Notes: generated by a model from the letters alone, not told the origin. DNA of 64,000 bases from Verrucomicrobiota bacterium (GCA_026398255.1 JAPLTG010000033.1:62001-126000); one strand, 5' to 3'. Shown: positions 20,750 to 34,520, counted from the first letter of the stretch. Program-made: numbers and translations.

Positions 20750-20878
20750 GTGGAAATCCCGCAAAACGGGACAAGGAATGTGAGTCGATGCGGCGTTTGC
20801 CGCAAGTGAAAAGTCGGCTTCAAATTCGACACCCGATACCCCTTGTGTTCCTCGCATAAATTGGCTTTTGTCGAGGAC

Positions 20879-22330
20879 ATGGATTCTGGGCAATCCGCAT
20901 CGATTGGGGATGGACGCTATGTGTTCGAACGACGGGTTGGCGTCGGGGGGTGTGGCGCGGTTTATCTTGCCTATGACACGGTTCTGAATCGCTGGGTCGC
21001 CATCAAGCAGATCGTAACCGACGACGGCATCTCCGATCCCTTCCTCGAAGCCCGCCAACTCGCGAGCCTCCAGCACCCGAACATCGTCACGATCTATGAC
21101 TTCTTCCGTTCCGAAGGCCAAACCTTCGTTGTGATGGAGTATATCTCGGGTCAAAATATCAACGAGCTCTCCGAACCGATGGCGCTCGATTTTTTCGCCA
21201 CCTTTGCCCGCCAATGCCTCGAAGCCCTCGGCGCCGCCCATGCGATTGGATTGGTTCACCGCGACATCAAACCCGCAAACATCATGCTCGCCGCCACCCC
21301 TTCAGGCGGCTTCCAAGCCAAGTTGCTCGACTTCGGGTTGGCCAAAGTCATGAGCGAACCGAGCCAGCAAACGATGGATCACTCGGGTGCCATCACCGGA
21401 TCGATTCACACCATCTCGCCCGAGCAACTCAACCGCCTCCCCATGGATCAGCGCTCGGACCTCTACTCGCTGGGTTGTGTTTTCTACAAGGCGCTCACCT
21501 TTCAGTTTCCATTCCAAGGGGATGACGTCCCCTCGCTCATCGCCGCCCATCTTCAACACGATTTCACTCCGCTCTCGAAAGCCCGACCCGACCTTCCCAT
21601 CGCACTCGCCGCCTGGGTGGAAAAACTTTTCGATTTCAACAAGGATGACCGCCCGCAATCCGCATCCGAGGCCCTTCAGGGTCTCGAACCCTCCACCAAA
21701 ACGCCCTCTCCGAACAAGCGCCCCGACCTGCGCGGCAAACCCTCCCTCGCCAATCCCCTCACCTCTCCGACTCCACCTCCACCGAAAAAAAACAAACCAA
21801 ATCCTCCCGCAGAAGTCGATGAGAGCCCGACATCCAAAGCCACCCCATTCCATCGCTCGCAGAATTTCGTGATCGCCATGGCGGCGGTGATTGCCGTTTG
21901 CACGACTCTCACGATCCTCGCCCTCACCGGCAATTTCGGAGGAGTCACATCCCGCCCCTCGCCCTTCGCCAAAAAGGAAAAGCCCACGCCCACACCAGCC
22001 GAAAAGACATCCTTCAAGTCCACCGATCGCGGGGAAATCAAAGACAAAGCCGGCAAACAAATCACCGTCACCGGCGTTATCGACCGCTTGGAGCACGGTG
22101 AAAAGAGCCGCTATCTGGTTTTCGCCGAGTCCGACCCCCGCAGCGGTGTGATGGTTTCCTACGACCCCGCAAAAACTGAAATCTCGGAGTGGATGCTCAA
22201 ACGCAAATTCGTCGGCCAAAAAGTTCGCGCCAATGGAACCGTTCAACTCGACGGGAGCCGCTTGCTCCTCGAGATATCTTCCATGGACGACCTCACACTC
22301 CACGCCGATGAGTCCCCTGCCTCAAAGTAA
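20879..22330 (+). CDS. Membrane Ser/Thr protein kinase with extracytoplasmic OB-like domain
   Basis: Hanks-type kinase of 483 residues. The kinase domain (about 10-270) has a glycine loop VGVGGCGAVYLAYD, the ATP lysine in VAIKQIV, catalytic loop VHRDIKPANIM, DFGLAK, and SPEQL in place of APE, so it looks active. A Pro/Lys-rich juxtamembrane part follows, then one membrane helix (about 335-357, AMAAVIAVCTTLTILALTG). The last 100 residues contain ITVTGVIDRLEHGEKSRYLVF and resemble an OB-fold, probably a periplasmic sensor or binding module. The ATG at 20879 follows GAGG closely; an upstream ATG at 20843 is less likely. Confidence 0.9.
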   Translation: MDSGQSASIGDGRYVFERRVGVGGCGAVYLAYDTVLNRWVAIKQIVTDDGISDPFLEARQLASLQHPNIVTIYDFFRSEGQTFVVMEYISGQNINELSEPMALDFFATFARQCLEALGAAHAIGLVHRDIKPANIMLAATPSGGFQAKLLDFGLAKVMSEPSQQTMDHSGAITGSIHTISPEQLNRLPMDQRSDLYSLGCVFYKALTFQFPFQGDDVPSLIAAHLQHDFTPLSKARPDLPIALAAWVEKLFDFNKDDRPQSASEALQGLEPSTKTPSPNKRPDLRGKPSLANPLTSPTPPPPKKNKPNPPAEVDESPTSKATPFHRSQNFVIAMAAVIAVCTTLTILALTGNFGGVTSRPSPFAKKEKPTPTPAEKTSFKSTDRGEIKDKAGKQITVTGVIDRLEHGEKSRYLVFAESDPRSGVMVSYDPAKTEISEWMLKRKFVGQKVRANGTVQLDGSRLLLEISSMDDLTLHADESPASK

Positions 22331-22606: not shown

Positions 22607-27076
<4,470 letters not shown>

Positions 27077-27964: not shown

Positions 27965-28456
27965 TCAGCGCAAGCGCACTTGCGTCATGGTTTTTCCTGG
28001 GAAATTCGGCTTCTCGAGTCGGTCGCCGCGGAAGTGGGGGGTCATGTCTTTGAAGGGAATCTCGAGGGTTTGCCAATCGGTGCCGGTCTGGAATTCGGCT
28101 TGGTAGTAGTGGCGTGCGCCGGGAGTGGCCTCGGTGAGGAGGCGGTAGCGTTTGCCGTCGCCGCGGAGGCGCATGACGAAGGTCGAGTAGGGGCTGACAT
28201 CAATGGGGTCGAAGTTCCATCGCACGGAGGAAAAGCCGCCGTTGTTCTCGAGCGAGACATTCCCGGTGAATGTCGCGTGGCCTTCGTTGTTGAGCTGGAA
28301 GCGCCCTTTCGAGAGGCCGCCCATGACGCCGTCGTCCTCGATCATCCAACCGGAGGTGTCGCCGTCTTTTTTGAAGTCGAAGAGAATTTTTTGCTCTGCG
28401 TGTGCCGAGGTGGGTAGCGAGAAGGCGAGGGCAAGGAGGAGTGCGGAGCGGATCAT
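27965..28456 (-). CDS. CIA30-family exported protein, probably C-terminally shortened
   Basis: A 163-residue protein with signal peptide about 1-19 (LLLALAFSLPTSAHA). The mature part matches the CIA30/galactose-binding-like fold: FKKDGDTSGWMIEDDGVMGG, then SLENNGGFSSVRW and a central FVMRLRGDGKRYRLL. The family normally ends with a strand of the kind IGFMIADKQAGPFRLEI; here the frame stops at TMTQVRLR just before that, and no other frame supplies it. The stop lies next to the direct repeats. The ATG at 28456 starts the signal peptide; the longer frame is not supported. Confidence 0.75.
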   Translation of the reverse strand: MIRSALLLALAFSLPTSAHAEQKILFDFKKDGDTSGWMIEDDGVMGGLSKGRFQLNNEGHATFTGNVSLENNGGFSSVRWNFDPIDVSPYSTFVMRLRGDGKRYRLLTEATPGARHYYQAEFQTGTDWQTLEIPFKDMTPHFRGDRLEKPNFPGKTMTQVRLR

Positions 28457-28635
28457 GGCGTAGAACACTACGCGCAGGTCGGGGCGGTGGATGTCTTGGG
28501 AAAAAACTTCCCGCCTCGGCGAGCACGGCGTCGCAGGTGAGAAACAGCGCGATGGCCTTGGAGCCGCCAGCCGACGCCCAAGTTCTCGCACTTTTTCTTT
28601 CACCACTCATCGGATATGGCATTTTATACCCTCTC

Positions 28636-29643
28636 ATGAGCACCACCTCCTCGGATTCGCCGATCCTCCACGAGCCAGTTGGAACGACTTTCAAGGTCGC
28701 TGCCTCGTTACTGGCCGCTTTTCTTGTCCTGCAAATCGCCGCGGTGACTTGGTATTTCCTGCCTCGACTCCAGCAGGCCATCGTCAGCCAAGTCGTGACC
28801 GAAAAACCGCCCGAAGCCAAAGTGGAACCTGCCGTGGCGGCCGCGACACCCATCTCCCAGCCCACCGCCACCCCCACTCCGCAGCAACCAGACGACGCAA
28901 CCTACGAGAAAATCACGGCGCTTGTGGCGGAGTCGGACAAGGCCTTTCGAATAGGGGAATACGACATCGGGTTGGAAAAAATCCGTCAGGCCGATCGCCT
29001 CTTGCCGAACGATGCGGGCATCCTTCTTCGCATCGCCCGGCTTCATGAAAAGCGCAGCGAAACCGAGGATGCGGCGTCTATTTATAATACGGTGCTCGCC
29101 CTGCCGGATTTGGGCCAGGAATTGCGCGCCCAGACACGCCGCAAGCTAGGGATGCTGGAAAATGCCAAGGCCCAGGCTCCTGCCGAGCTGACCATGGTCG
29201 CCGCCGAGAAAGGCGCGGACGCCCGTGACGAGTTCGGCCTCCAGCCCGGAGCCATCCTCGGCATCGTGGATACCAAGCTGATCGATGGTGCCGAAGGTAA
29301 GAAAAACCTCCGCATCTCGATCAAGTCCCGCCCCGGCCAAACGATCGATTCCCAGCAAATGCGAGTTCATGTTTACTTCTACGACAAGGATCCGGCCGGA
29401 AACATCGAACTCACCGAGTCGGACATCCTCACCGAGTGGATCAGCCCGCCGGTGAATTGGAGTGAGAACGAGCCCGAAATCCTCGACACCACCTACACCC
29501 CGCCCTCGGATCCGAGTTTCTCATTCATCGGATATGTGGTGGGCATCTACTACACTGGGGAACTCCAAGACACCCGAGCGAACCCCGGTTCCCTGGCCAC
29601 CGAGCACCCCTTGCCCCTTTATCTCACCAACGAGAATCCGTGA
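28636..29643 (+). CDS. Membrane-anchored TPR protein of the pseudokinase module
   Basis: A 335-residue protein with a short cytosolic N-terminus, one helix (about 18-40, VAASLLAAFLVLQIAAVTWY), a Pro/Ala/Thr-rich linker (about 55-80) and TPR-like helices (about 85-175, including FRIGEYDIGLEKIRQADRLL). The C-terminal 150 residues look beta-rich (LRISIKSRPGQTIDSQQMRV, HVYFYDKDP). No enzymatic motif is seen. Its stop overlaps the next gene's GTG by four bases, tying it to the receiver/pseudokinase protein. Confidence 0.7.
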   Translation: MSTTSSDSPILHEPVGTTFKVAASLLAAFLVLQIAAVTWYFLPRLQQAIVSQVVTEKPPEAKVEPAVAAATPISQPTATPTPQQPDDATYEKITALVAESDKAFRIGEYDIGLEKIRQADRLLPNDAGILLRIARLHEKRSETEDAASIYNTVLALPDLGQELRAQTRRKLGMLENAKAQAPAELTMVAAEKGADARDEFGLQPGAILGIVDTKLIDGAEGKKNLRISIKSRPGQTIDSQQMRVHVYFYDKDPAGNIELTESDILTEWISPPVNWSENEPEILDTTYTPPSDPSFSFIGYVVGIYYTGELQDTRANPGSLATEHPLPLYLTNENP

Positions 29644-31592
29644 AAATTTTTGCGGCACTCAATGAGGCTTCCTCCGCCGAGTCGGTGGCATCATTGTTTG
29701 TCGAGCTGTGTTGGCCTCGCCCGTCGCTGGCATTCCATTGCGACGAGGCCATTCGGGAGATCGAGGCCGCGGGAGGTTGCGACCTTTTGCTCTTGGATGT
29801 CTTCCTCTCGCCGCTCGGGGGATTCACTCTCCGCGATATCCTCCGCGACCGCTACCCCCAGATGAAGACGCTTTTCGTCTCGTCTCGCGACATCTCCGCC
29901 TATGCGGGGCTTTTGCAAGGGGCACCATTTCTTCCACTGCCTCTGGAGACAAACGCCCTTCGCAGCTGCTTGGAATCCATGTTCCCCGCCCCGGCGGCGG
30001 TCCATTTGACCGGCACGATTTTTGGTCATTTCCATGTCCGCGAAAAACTCGGCGAGCGCGAGGGAGTCGAAATTTTTCGGGCCCGAAAAACACACAGCGG
30101 CCATCAGGTGATGCTCCATGTGTTGATTCAGGAAAACCCACCGTGCCCGAAGAAGGGCGCGGCGTTTTTGGATGAGGCCCAAGCCAAGATGCGACGCTCA
30201 CACCCCCGCATTCTGGAGGTCTTGGACACCGGAACGGCCGAGGGACGCGAGTTTTTCACCACGCCGTTTTTGGGGGGCGCCACGCTGGAAATCTTGCTGG
30301 CGAGCGGCGGCAAGATCGACTCCTCCACCGCGCTGCAAGTGATCGGTTTGGTCGCCGAGGTTTTCGGCGATTGCGAAAGAAAAAACATCCCGTTCGGCCC
30401 GCTGATCTCCGCGGCGATTCTTTTGCCCAAAAACGCTCTCCCCCGCCTCGCCAACCTCGCGCTTTCCGGAGAGGGCCCTTCTCAAAATCCCAGCCTATCG
30501 ATGCAAACCCTCGGCCGTTTGATCCTCGAGGCCTTGGACTCCTCACCCGCTTCCGAATCAGCGAGAAGCGTCGCCCTGAGATTAATAGATTCCGAAGCGA
30601 ATCCTTTATCCTGGGAAGAGGTCGAGAAGCTTTCGTGCCCCGCCCCGCCGAAGCCAGCAACTCCTTCTCCCACTCCCCCGCCAACCCCTCCACCACCGAA
30701 AAAACACAACCCCACCCCGATCATCGCCGGCGCGTTGCTCCTTGTGAGCGCGGCGCTCGGCCTCTGGTTTTTCATGAGGCCCTCGACGATTGAGGTCCAA
30801 GTCCCCTATCTCGGCGCCCTCGTGGAAATTCCCGCCGGACCATTCGACTTCCAAGGCCAGCCTGCCAGCCTTCCGGCGTTCTATATTTCCAAATACGAAG
30901 TCACGATTGCCGAATATCAAAAGTTCCTCGAGGACCTCGAGCGCCACCCTGAAAAGAGCGCCGAGATCGCCCATCCGTTCCAACCTCCCGGCAAGTCTCA
31001 TGTGCCAAAAGGCTGGGCGGACCAAACGCAAGTCACGCCGCCGTCCCCCGGTTATTTCAAACGCGCCGTCCGCGAGGGCCAATATCTCGGCGCAACCCTC
31101 ACGCCCGACTCTCCGGTTTTCGGAGTCGATTGGTTCGACGCCTACGCTTACGCAAAATGGGCCGGACGCCGCCTTCCCACCGAGCGGGAATGGGAAAAAG
31201 CCGCCCGCGGCCGTGCCTCCTCGCGTCACCCGTGGGGCGAGACGCATTCCGAGGATTTGGCGAATCTCGGCTTCGATTTCACCCCCAGCCCCGATGCCAA
31301 AATCGGCGGAGAGAAAGATGGTTTCAAACGATGGAGCCGCGTGGATTTGCCAACCACCGACCGCAGCGATTACGGAATCCACGGCATGGCGGGCAATGTC
31401 TCGGAGTGGACTGCAATTTGGGTGAAAGATGGAAACGGCCAGCGAGTCCCCGTTTCTCGCGGCGGCCACTGGATGACTGGCTTTGGAAATAGCACCGACA
31501 CGGCCACAGCGACCCGTCGCGCCATGGATTTGACCCCGCTGCAAACCTCGGACACGATGGGCTTCCGAACCGCTGCCGACAAACCCGACTAG
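29640..31592 (+). CDS. Receiver-pseudokinase-membrane helix-SUMF-like multidomain protein
   Basis: A 650-residue protein starting at GTG. Residues 1-115 resemble a response-regulator receiver (phosphoacceptor-like Asp in DLLLLDVF, FVSSRD). About 125-330 is a protein-kinase fold (FGHFHVREKLGEREGVEIFR) lacking the ATP Lys, the HRDxKPxN loop and DFG, so it is probably inactive. A Pro-rich stretch and a helix (about 362-380) follow. The C-terminus (about 390-650) is a sulfatase-modifying-factor/FGE fold (YEVTIAEYQKFL, RLPTEREWEKAARG, GMAGNVSEW, GFRTAAD) without the catalytic Cys pair. Pkn1-type kinase-FGE proteins are the nearest known arrangement. Confidence 0.8.
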   Translation: MKIFAALNEASSAESVASLFVELCWPRPSLAFHCDEAIREIEAAGGCDLLLLDVFLSPLGGFTLRDILRDRYPQMKTLFVSSRDISAYAGLLQGAPFLPLPLETNALRSCLESMFPAPAAVHLTGTIFGHFHVREKLGEREGVEIFRARKTHSGHQVMLHVLIQENPPCPKKGAAFLDEAQAKMRRSHPRILEVLDTGTAEGREFFTTPFLGGATLEILLASGGKIDSSTALQVIGLVAEVFGDCERKNIPFGPLISAAILLPKNALPRLANLALSGEGPSQNPSLSMQTLGRLILEALDSSPASESARSVALRLIDSEANPLSWEEVEKLSCPAPPKPATPSPTPPPTPPPPKKHNPTPIIAGALLLVSAALGLWFFMRPSTIEVQVPYLGALVEIPAGPFDFQGQPASLPAFYISKYEVTIAEYQKFLEDLERHPEKSAEIAHPFQPPGKSHVPKGWADQTQVTPPSPGYFKRAVREGQYLGATLTPDSPVFGVDWFDAYAYAKWAGRRLPTEREWEKAARGRASSRHPWGETHSEDLANLGFDFTPSPDAKIGGEKDGFKRWSRVDLPTTDRSDYGIHGMAGNVSEWTAIWVKDGNGQRVPVSRGGHWMTGFGNSTDTATATRRAMDLTPLQTSDTMGFRTAADKPD

Positions 31593-31594
31593 CC

Positions 31595-32539
31595 ATGGCC
31601 AGGATTCTCAAAACAACAACCACCCTCCTGCTCACCCTTGCCGCCTTCCTGCCCACCGCCCGCGCGCAGTTGCAAGTGGATATGAGCCTCAAGCGCTCCC
31701 TTTACCTCGCCTACGAACCGCTCATCGTGAATGTGACGATCCAAAACCTCAGCGGAAACTCCCTCAACCTCCGAGACACCGACGACATTCCGTGGTTCAG
31801 TTTCCAAATCGAAACCCTCGACGGTCGCCCCATCCCGCCTCGCAGCGTCAAGCATTCGAATCCCTCCCTGCTCCTGAAAGCCGGCGAAAAACTCTCCCGC
31901 CCGGTGAACCTCACCCCGCTCTACCCGATCAGCGAATATGGAGGCTACCGCATCCGCGCCACCATCCACAACTCCTCGCTCGGCCGATCCTTCTCCTCCG
32001 AGCCGATGAATATCGAAATCACCGAGGGGCGCTCTCTTTTTGAGAAAACCGTCGGCGTCCCTGCCAGCCAACCCGGCGGCGGCGGCACGCGCCAGATCAA
32101 TGTCCTCTCCCACCGACTCCCGAACAGCACCCAACTCTATATCCGAATCACGGACCCAAAAGCCGGCGTCATCAAATGCACCCACCGCCTCGGCCGTATC
32201 GTCTCCTACGGCACTCCCGACATCCTTCTGGACGGCTCGAACGAGATTCACATCCTTCAAAATGTCGCCCCCAAGGCCTTCCTCCACTCCCACATCGGCC
32301 TCAATGGCGAAATCCACGAGCGAAAAACCTATCAGCAAAACACGAAAGTCCCCGCTCTGATGCAGAGGCCTGATGGTCAGGTCGTCGTGATCGGTGCCCA
32401 AGCCATCGACACCGCCACCATCGCCGAGCGCGAACACACCACTCCCACGATCTCCGACCGCCCCGTTCCACTCCCTGGCGCCGATACCGACCAGACCCCC
32501 AAGGACGAAAATCGCCCTAAAAACCTCCTCTCTCGCTGA
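31595..32539 (+). CDS. Exported protein of unknown function, third gene of the pseudokinase module
   Basis: A 314-residue protein with a signal peptide (about 1-24, ending PTARAQ). The mature part has Ig-like beta segments (LYLAYEPLIVNVTIQNLSGN, then SLNLRDTDDIPWFSF), a Gly-rich spacer near 155 and a polar, Pro-rich tail without structure. No known enzyme motif is seen. It starts two bases after the multidomain gene, so it is probably cotranscribed and may be its periplasmic partner. Confidence 0.65.
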   Translation: MARILKTTTTLLLTLAAFLPTARAQLQVDMSLKRSLYLAYEPLIVNVTIQNLSGNSLNLRDTDDIPWFSFQIETLDGRPIPPRSVKHSNPSLLLKAGEKLSRPVNLTPLYPISEYGGYRIRATIHNSSLGRSFSSEPMNIEITEGRSLFEKTVGVPASQPGGGGTRQINVLSHRLPNSTQLYIRITDPKAGVIKCTHRLGRIVSYGTPDILLDGSNEIHILQNVAPKAFLHSHIGLNGEIHERKTYQQNTKVPALMQRPDGQVVVIGAQAIDTATIAEREHTTPTISDRPVPLPGADTDQTPKDENRPKNLLSR

Positions 32540-32960: not shown

Positions 32961-33170
32961 CTCCTCCCTCCAAGGGGCAGTTGAAATCCACCACACATTC
33001 CATGCCTCCTAGCCGGATTGGTTTCTACAAAGGGTTAAACGGCTTGTTGGTAAATTTTTACAACTCAAACTCGACTGCAGCCCGATTTTTAAACTTGTTT
33101 CGGGTCCAACCACTCTCAATTCTAGCCACGTTCCAGCGCCAACAGGCCGGTCGCGGTGTATAAATCCATC

Positions 33171-34520
33171 ATGTCTCACTCCCCATCCAATCTTTGGCCT
33201 CAGATTTCCAAGCACATCCGCGAGCGCGTGAGCGCCGATGGTTTTGAGCGCTGGTTTTCGAATGTCACGATTGCCGCCGTCGATGGCGCAACGCTCCGCT
33301 TGGGCGTGCCCAATCCGATCCACCAGTTTTTTATCGAGAGCAACTACCTCCCGATCGTGCGGGAATCCGTCCTCCTCGTCGCCCCAACCATCGAAAAAGT
33401 CGAATTCCAGCCGAGCGAGGCAGAATCCCAGCCCGCCCCAGCCGCGCCCACCCGCAAAGCCAGCAAAGAACCGAAGGACAAATCGATGAAAATCGCCGTC
33501 GCCGGGATGAATCCGCGCAACACCTTTGAGAATTTCGTCGTGGGTCGTAACAACGAATTCGCCCACTCCGCCTCGCTCGCCGTCGGCAATTCCCCCGCCG
33601 TCACCTACAATCCCCTCTTTATCTACGGCGTGAGCGGCATTGGAAAAACCCACCTCCTCCAAGCGATCGGCCATCATGTTCAGGCCAACAACGCCTCCGC
33701 AAAGGTCGTTTACCTCTCGAGCGAGCAATTCACGAACGAGTTCATCGATGCCATCCAGCACGGCACGCTGGTGAAATTCCGCAAAAAATACCGCCAAGCC
33801 GATGTCCTGCTCATCGACGACATCCAATTCTTCGCCGGCAAGGAACGCTCCCAGGAGGAATTCTTCCACACCTTCAACGCGCTCCACGACGGCCACAAAC
33901 AGATCGTTCTCTCCAGCGACCGCCCGGCCAGCGAGATTGAAAAACTCGAGCAACGCCTCGTCTCCCGCTTCGAGTGGGGCATGACCGCCGAGATTCAACC
34001 ACCGGACACCGAAACGCGTATCGCCATCCTTCGCAGCAAGGCCGCGTCCTTGAATCTCCAGATCGAGCCTTGGATTATAGACTTCCTCGCCGACAAGATC
34101 CGCAACAATGTCCGCCGCCTCGAGGGCGCCCTCATGCGGGTGGCCTCCTACAAATCCCTCAGCGACCGCGAACTCACCCGCGAAGTCATCGAAAACCTCC
34201 TGCGCGACATTTTCCAAGAGCAAGCCCGCAAGGCCATCACGATCGATCAAATCCAGCGCCGCGTCGCCGAGCATTTCGATGTGCGCCTCGCCGACATGAC
34301 GAGCAAACGCCGCCCTGCGAATATCGCCTTCCCGCGACAGATCGCCATGTATCTCTCGCGCCAACACACCAATTCCTCCCTCATGGATATCGGCGATGCG
34401 TTCGGCGGCAAGGACCACGGCACCGTGATCCACGCCTGCAAACTCATCAAAAAACGGATGGAGGAGGACGAAAAAACCCGTCAGGTCGTCAGCCTTCTCG
34501 ATACCCAACTCCAGCGCTGA
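33171..34520 (+). CDS. dnaA: Chromosomal replication initiator DnaA
   Basis: AAA+ initiator that opens oriC. The 449 residues comprise an N-terminal helicase-interaction domain (LWPQISKHIRERVSADGFER), a short linker, the AAA+ domain with Walker A YGVSGIGKTHLLQA and Walker B LLIDDIQFFAGKERSQEEFF, and the DNA-binding domain with RPANIAFPRQIAMYLSR and FGGKDHGTVIHACKL (DHGTV in place of the common DHTTV). I start at the ATG at 33171; a GTG five codons upstream is in frame. dnaN and recF are not adjacent. Confidence 0.96.
   Translation: MSHSPSNLWPQISKHIRERVSADGFERWFSNVTIAAVDGATLRLGVPNPIHQFFIESNYLPIVRESVLLVAPTIEKVEFQPSEAESQPAPAAPTRKASKEPKDKSMKIAVAGMNPRNTFENFVVGRNNEFAHSASLAVGNSPAVTYNPLFIYGVSGIGKTHLLQAIGHHVQANNASAKVVYLSSEQFTNEFIDAIQHGTLVKFRKKYRQADVLLIDDIQFFAGKERSQEEFFHTFNALHDGHKQIVLSSDRPASEIEKLEQRLVSRFEWGMTAEIQPPDTETRIAILRSKAASLNLQIEPWIIDFLADKIRNNVRRLEGALMRVASYKSLSDRELTREVIENLLRDIFQEQARKAITIDQIQRRVAEHFDVRLADMTSKRRPANIAFPRQIAMYLSRQHTNSSLMDIGDAFGGKDHGTVIHACKLIKKRMEEDEKTRQVVSLLDTQLQR

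Follow-up and report, generated by a model that had tools for sequence, protein, structure and literature searches.

A conserved operon of three genes, which we call A, B and C, was found in the window, that is the whole 64,000-nucleotide stretch of Verrucomicrobiota DNA analysed here, and its central gene encodes a predicted membrane-spanning protein in which two fused enzyme domains have kept their folds and lost their catalytic residues. We give an even chance to the reading that A, B and C form a non-enzymatic adaptor complex of the inner membrane and periplasm that links a signal in the cytosol to an envelope machine, with a type IV pilus-like machine as the foremost candidate. The operon is conserved in a major bacterial class and its function is predicted here from sequence. 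B could serve as a test case for signalling by pseudoenzymes across a membrane, and the link to pili and MglA, if true, would give a clue to the control of surface attachment in Verrucomicrobiota.

Gene B encodes a transmembrane protein with two degenerate enzyme domains

The features of the three genes are listed in Table 1. A Pfam search with the window B alone gave a match to FGE-sulfatase at 1.7e-38, which passes the curated cut-off of PF03781 (133 bits vs 23.3), and weak matches to receiver (0.013) and kinase (0.02) domains. A family profile made from a 22-member B alignment was then compared with the PDB and matched FGE at 1.2e-35, bacterial kinases at 1e-22 and receivers at 1e-14. A kinase-only profile matched PknA at 7e-21 over profile positions 9-163. 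These significant matches to solved structures bear out the first-pass annotation of this DNA, which had read B as a receiver-like domain, a kinase fold, a membrane helix and an FGE-like fold. For B, the FGE and kinase folds are assigned from sequence profiles; the structure models presented below are those of A and C. On its profile matches and motifs B belongs to the protein kinase fold superfamily as a pseudokinase.

Table 1. Coordinates of genes A, B and C and of their predicted domains, counted from the first nucleotide of the window
Feature	Coordinates	Strand	Basis
Gene A: N-terminal membrane helix, TPR domain, C-terminal beta domain; 335 aa	28636..29643	+	ORF, translation
Gene A membrane helix, residues 19-41	28690..28758	+	hydrophobic segment; helix in AlphaFold2 model
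Gene A TPR domain, residues 87-179	28894..29172	+	AlphaFold2 and PDB matches
Gene A C-terminal beta domain, residues 205-323	29248..29604	+	alignment A2, AlphaFold2 model
Gene B: receiver, pseudokinase, TM, FGE-like; 650 aa, GTG start	29640..31592	+	ORF, Pfam, profiles
Gene B degenerate receiver, residues 1-115	29640..29984	+	profile matches, site tally
Gene B pseudokinase, residues 121-335, shortened C-lobe	30000..30644	+	kinase profile, site tally
Gene B membrane helix, residues 361-379	30720..30776	+	hydrophobicity, charge count
Gene B FGE-like domain without Cys pair, residues 386-650	30795..31589	+	Pfam, PDB match, site tally
Gene C: signal peptide, two beta domains, tail; 314 aa	31595..32539	+	ORF, translation, AlphaFold2

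The kinase-like domain had been described as lacking the ATP Lys, HRD and DFG. In the window B the VAIK Lys is indeed H160, the HRD Asp is P254 and the DFG motif reads N272-L-A, and the protein thus has none of the three residues (VAIK Lys, HRD Asp, DFG Asp) by which an active Hanks-type Ser/Thr kinase is recognized. Among the 35 aligned B members of the order the HRD Asp is replaced in all and the DFG Asp is an asparagine in all, and the VAIK lysine is retained in 8. A separate membrane Ser/Thr kinase gene in the window (20843-22330) provides an internal control: it retains VAIK, HRDIKPAN and DFG, which indicates that the loss of these motifs is specific to B.

The FGE-like fold had been said to lack its Cys pair, and the corresponding segment of the window protein, RGGHWMTGFGNST, contains no Cys. 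None of the 39 aligned B members has the active-site Cys pair, which sets them apart from formylglycine-generating enzymes. The earlier impression that both enzyme-like domains are inactive therefore holds for the family as a whole as far as catalytic residues are concerned. The closest PDB structure to the FGE domain of B is SUMF2 (1y4j). SUMF2/pFGE is an FGE paralogue that lacks the active Cys pair; unlike B it is eukaryotic, soluble and free of any pseudokinase fusion. Because the kinase-like and FGE-like domains have both lost their catalytic residues B is probably a non-enzymatic signalling adaptor, and the apparent retention of the folds in an alignment where every member has lost these residues argues for this reading.

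The receiver of the window B has L7-N8 where an acidic pair is expected, keeps D53, has S81 and carries L100 in place of the Lys; taken over the acidic pair, acceptor Asp, Ser/Thr and Lys it does not qualify as a functional response regulator. The receiver pocket is canonical in 14/35 aligned B members, those of the window's genus not being among them. Many receivers of this genus (L032-L037, L040) have a Glu at the phospho-acceptor position that could mimic phosphorylation. The mean number of K and R residues around the B helix is 4.9 before and 2.5 after it, and this family-wide excess of positive charges N-terminal to the helix places the kinase part in the cytosol and the FGE part in the periplasm.

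Genes A and C flank B in a compact operon

B starts with a GTG that overlaps the stop codon of A as GTGA, and two bases separate the stop codon of B from the start of C. These coordinates are as first annotated, when B was said to overlap the gene of a TPR membrane protein and to be followed within two bases by an exported Ig-like protein, and the structure models are in agreement with both descriptions. The AlphaFold2 model of A has a pLDDT of 86 and its TPR part matches TPR structures in the PDB with Z up to 14, in a comparison essentially of residues 82-189. For C the model reached a pLDDT of 87, and the first of its domains resembles Ig/FnIII folds (Z up to 11.9), in a comparison essentially of residues 22-145. 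A Pfam search of the window proteins gave no significant family for either A or C. The best-conserved portion of A is its C-terminal beta domain (alignment A2) and the orientation of its membrane helix is ambiguous under the charge rule.

The operon is conserved while the domains of B turn over

In a set of 58 relatives, most of them from the order, B had matches in 54 genomes (a count that takes in genomes matched by the FGE or kinase segment only), A had them in 46 and C in 50, and linked copies run A-B-C. At all 29 loci of the order the genes lie on one strand. The first-pass annotation had named poor conservation of the three-gene order as the outcome that would speak against its module; we find the order conserved, A and B being adjacent in 58 of the 65 class genomes that have both among the matches listed. 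B and C are adjacent in 40/72 class genomes and A and C in 51/72, again among the matches listed. Two genomes with split operons were checked (G262 and G232) and both retain A-B and C within the genome. C was found in 175/236 genomes class-wide, nearly always as a single copy, and its range extends to further classes of the phylum; that of A is largely limited to this class. Named records matched via C were from Spartobacteria, Chthoniobacterales and Terrimicrobiaceae. From gene order, topology and co-retention it is fair to infer that the three proteins form a complex across the inner membrane.

Receiver and kinase are joined by a Pro/Ala-rich linker in most B members; in others a DUF4388 (PATAN) domain, assigned by Pfam, lies between them. 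Families are given here by f-numbers. In family f8 a receiver-DUF4388 protein alone, with neither kinase nor FGE, sits between A and C (for example L070:5866-6543 and L069:5903-6952), and in genus g31 of f15 A, a receiver-less B (pseudokinase-TM-FGE) and C follow in a row. Family f5 has a DUF4388-TM-FGE protein, B', without A or C. In a tree of FGE domains the B members form one clade of 52 rows (99/99) with three G000 paralogues outside it. The f5 B' proteins fall inside this clade beside f4 (94/87) and we therefore count them as B members. Some other placements in this tree, those of the g31 rows included, are unsure because of long branches.

A possible link to type IV pili and MglA

As a non-enzymatic adaptor B would span the inner membrane, and its cytosolic receiver and pseudokinase, together with DUF4388/PATAN in several relatives, would bind partners whose state carries the signal. 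On the other side the periplasmic FGE-like domain would bind C and the TPR/beta part of A, whose soluble portion would then be periplasmic, or it would bind a putative envelope ligand. Signalling would run outwards, the complex tuning an envelope machine according to the cytosolic signal.

Which machine this may be is suggested by gene neighbours, read here as called ORFs rather than annotated genes. In two genera of f14 the consecutive genes are pilT, A, B, TPR/MshEN, pilB, a proline-rich/roadblock-like protein, mglA and mglB, and in f5 B' is followed by mglA, pilin and pilT. Since relatives of B sit in pilus/MglA operons of these two families, a type IV pilus-like machine is the leading candidate. 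It is also favoured by analogy with Myxococcus, where the pseudo-receiver protein FrzS and the TPR protein SgmX work together with MglA to control type IV pili (PMC11580455). Together with PATAN regulators of type IVa pili these proteins share pseudo-receiver, TPR or PATAN domains with the module, yet FrzS consists of a pseudo-receiver and a coiled coil and SgmX is a TPR protein, and neither has the FGE or pseudokinase of B.

Each of the two linkages probably goes back to one relocation event. Most pilB/mglA operons that we read in the class are without A and B, and against the pilus reading HtrA and amidase genes are commoner neighbours of the module than pili. In part of the class the genes for a TPR/MshEN protein, pilB, a proline-rich protein, mglA and mglB form a conserved operon (L157-L171), mostly without A-B. 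A scan for pilus genes around the module in the window found none adjacent and an MglA query had no match in the window's family, G000 included; for the window genome itself the pilus link is one that we infer. A bolder version of the adaptor reading, in which a protein of pseudo-domains (receiver, kinase and FGE) would relay a signal through the inner membrane purely by conformational coupling and control type IV pilus-like machines via MglA or by direct contact with the pilus base, is speculative and in our view somewhat unlikely.

Other neighbours and alternative readings

The module may instead sense protein quality in the periplasm and recruit or switch an adjacent HtrA/DegP-type serine protease, its FGE and TPR domains binding misfolded envelope proteins and presenting them to the protease or gating it. 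A protease of this type (Trypsin_2 and PDZ) is found directly upstream of A in f1, f9, f12 and f13, mostly no more than tens of bases away (the f1 cases exclude the window's genus), and these upstream proteases show the His motif in 9/10 and the Ser motif in 10/10 cases. Two HtrA-like genes face C in genus g31 and an HtrA lies near A in f20. We nevertheless think this reading unlikely: no HtrA was found beside the module in the window's genus or at the f2, f3, f4, f6, f8 and f35 loci, and the four Chthoniobacterales families may derive their arrangement from one ancestral event. At L044, L054, L059, L067 and L071 the HtrA upstream of A comes after an ExbB/TolQ-like gene and the gene of a large TPR protein. 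The HtrA neighbours also led us to consider FGE sensors of DGR and conflict systems that go with trypsin-like proteases (PMC10907252), but the neighbour lists of the module contain no reverse transcriptase, STAND ATPase or EAD domain and this identity was rejected.

A role in peptidoglycan remodelling, where C and the FGE domain would bind wall glycans and B relay the state of the wall much like the extracytoplasmic domains of PASTA kinases, seems to us quite unlikely. It would account for the N-acetylmuramoyl-L-alanine amidase gene found next after C in families f3, f4, f6 and f8 and in parts of f15, and for the genes resembling mreB, mreD and PBP2 (assigned by eye) that adjoin C in one f16 genome. 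However, no wall-binding motif was identified, and the amidase may mark an old housekeeping neighbourhood because an NnrD-like gene mostly comes next.

B could also be a cryptic enzyme, with a kinase-like domain that binds nucleotide and employs unusual chemistry or an FGE-like domain that uses other metal ligands. FGE-fold enzymes such as EgtB rely on different residues, and the survival of the VAIK lysine noted above suggests that some B members could bind nucleotide. The invariable loss of the HRD and DFG Asp and of the Cys pair weighs heavily against catalysis and makes this reading improbable. That the pseudo-domains of B are decaying remnants in an operon conserved for A and C only is highly improbable, since the folds and an N-[IL]-A signature persist across families in open reading frames, even though A and C are adjacent without B in f7, f13 and one f8 genome.

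Relation to known systems

The first-pass annotation went too far in calling the module not of any described type. Single-pass kinase-TM-FGE (SUMF1) proteins are common in Planctomycetota (PMC11032199) and have the same plan as B, a cytosolic kinase fold, one membrane helix and a periplasmic FGE-like domain. Those proteins are kinases, whereas in B the pseudokinase state is fixed, a receiver or DUF4388 is present and the gene lies in an operon with A and C. What appears to be new here is this fixed pseudokinase form within its conserved operon, and we found no description of it in the open-licence literature searched.

Bacterial pseudokinase families have been reviewed (ActPs1-3, GLW, CP1, DYD and DLHK; PMC12599244) and share with B a kinase fold with degraded catalytic motifs; the terms Verrucomicrobiota, FGE, receiver and response regulator are all absent from the text of that review. 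The B family profile also matched GldK/PorK of the type IX secretion system in the PDB near 1e-15, and like B this component of a periplasmic machine has an FGE-like fold. GldK/PorK is a Bacteroidota lipoprotein without a kinase part, whereas B has an internal membrane helix. MviN of mycobacteria is a pseudokinase with a membrane part and an extracytoplasmic domain, features which it shares with B along with degraded kinase motifs. Two further candidates were set aside. Chlamydial Pkn1, considered as a possible kinase-FGE relative, is treated in a review as an active cytoplasmic kinase with FGE unmentioned, and the module is dissimilar to the description of the Akkermansia mucin utilization locus MUL2 (amuc_1099-1102).

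Surroundings of the operon in the window

Upstream of the operon an ORF of 904 aa (24362-27076) resembles a metallo-beta-lactamase-type exonuclease fused to an ATP-dependent DNA ligase, and a gene on the minus strand (27965-28606), divergent from A, encodes a probably exported CIA30-domain protein (3.7e-35). Shortly downstream of the module and of a tRNA-Leu lies dnaA (33156-34520), and the cumulative GC skew has its minimum near 40 kb. Because of this minimum and the closeness of dnaA the A-B-C module may be near the replication origin.
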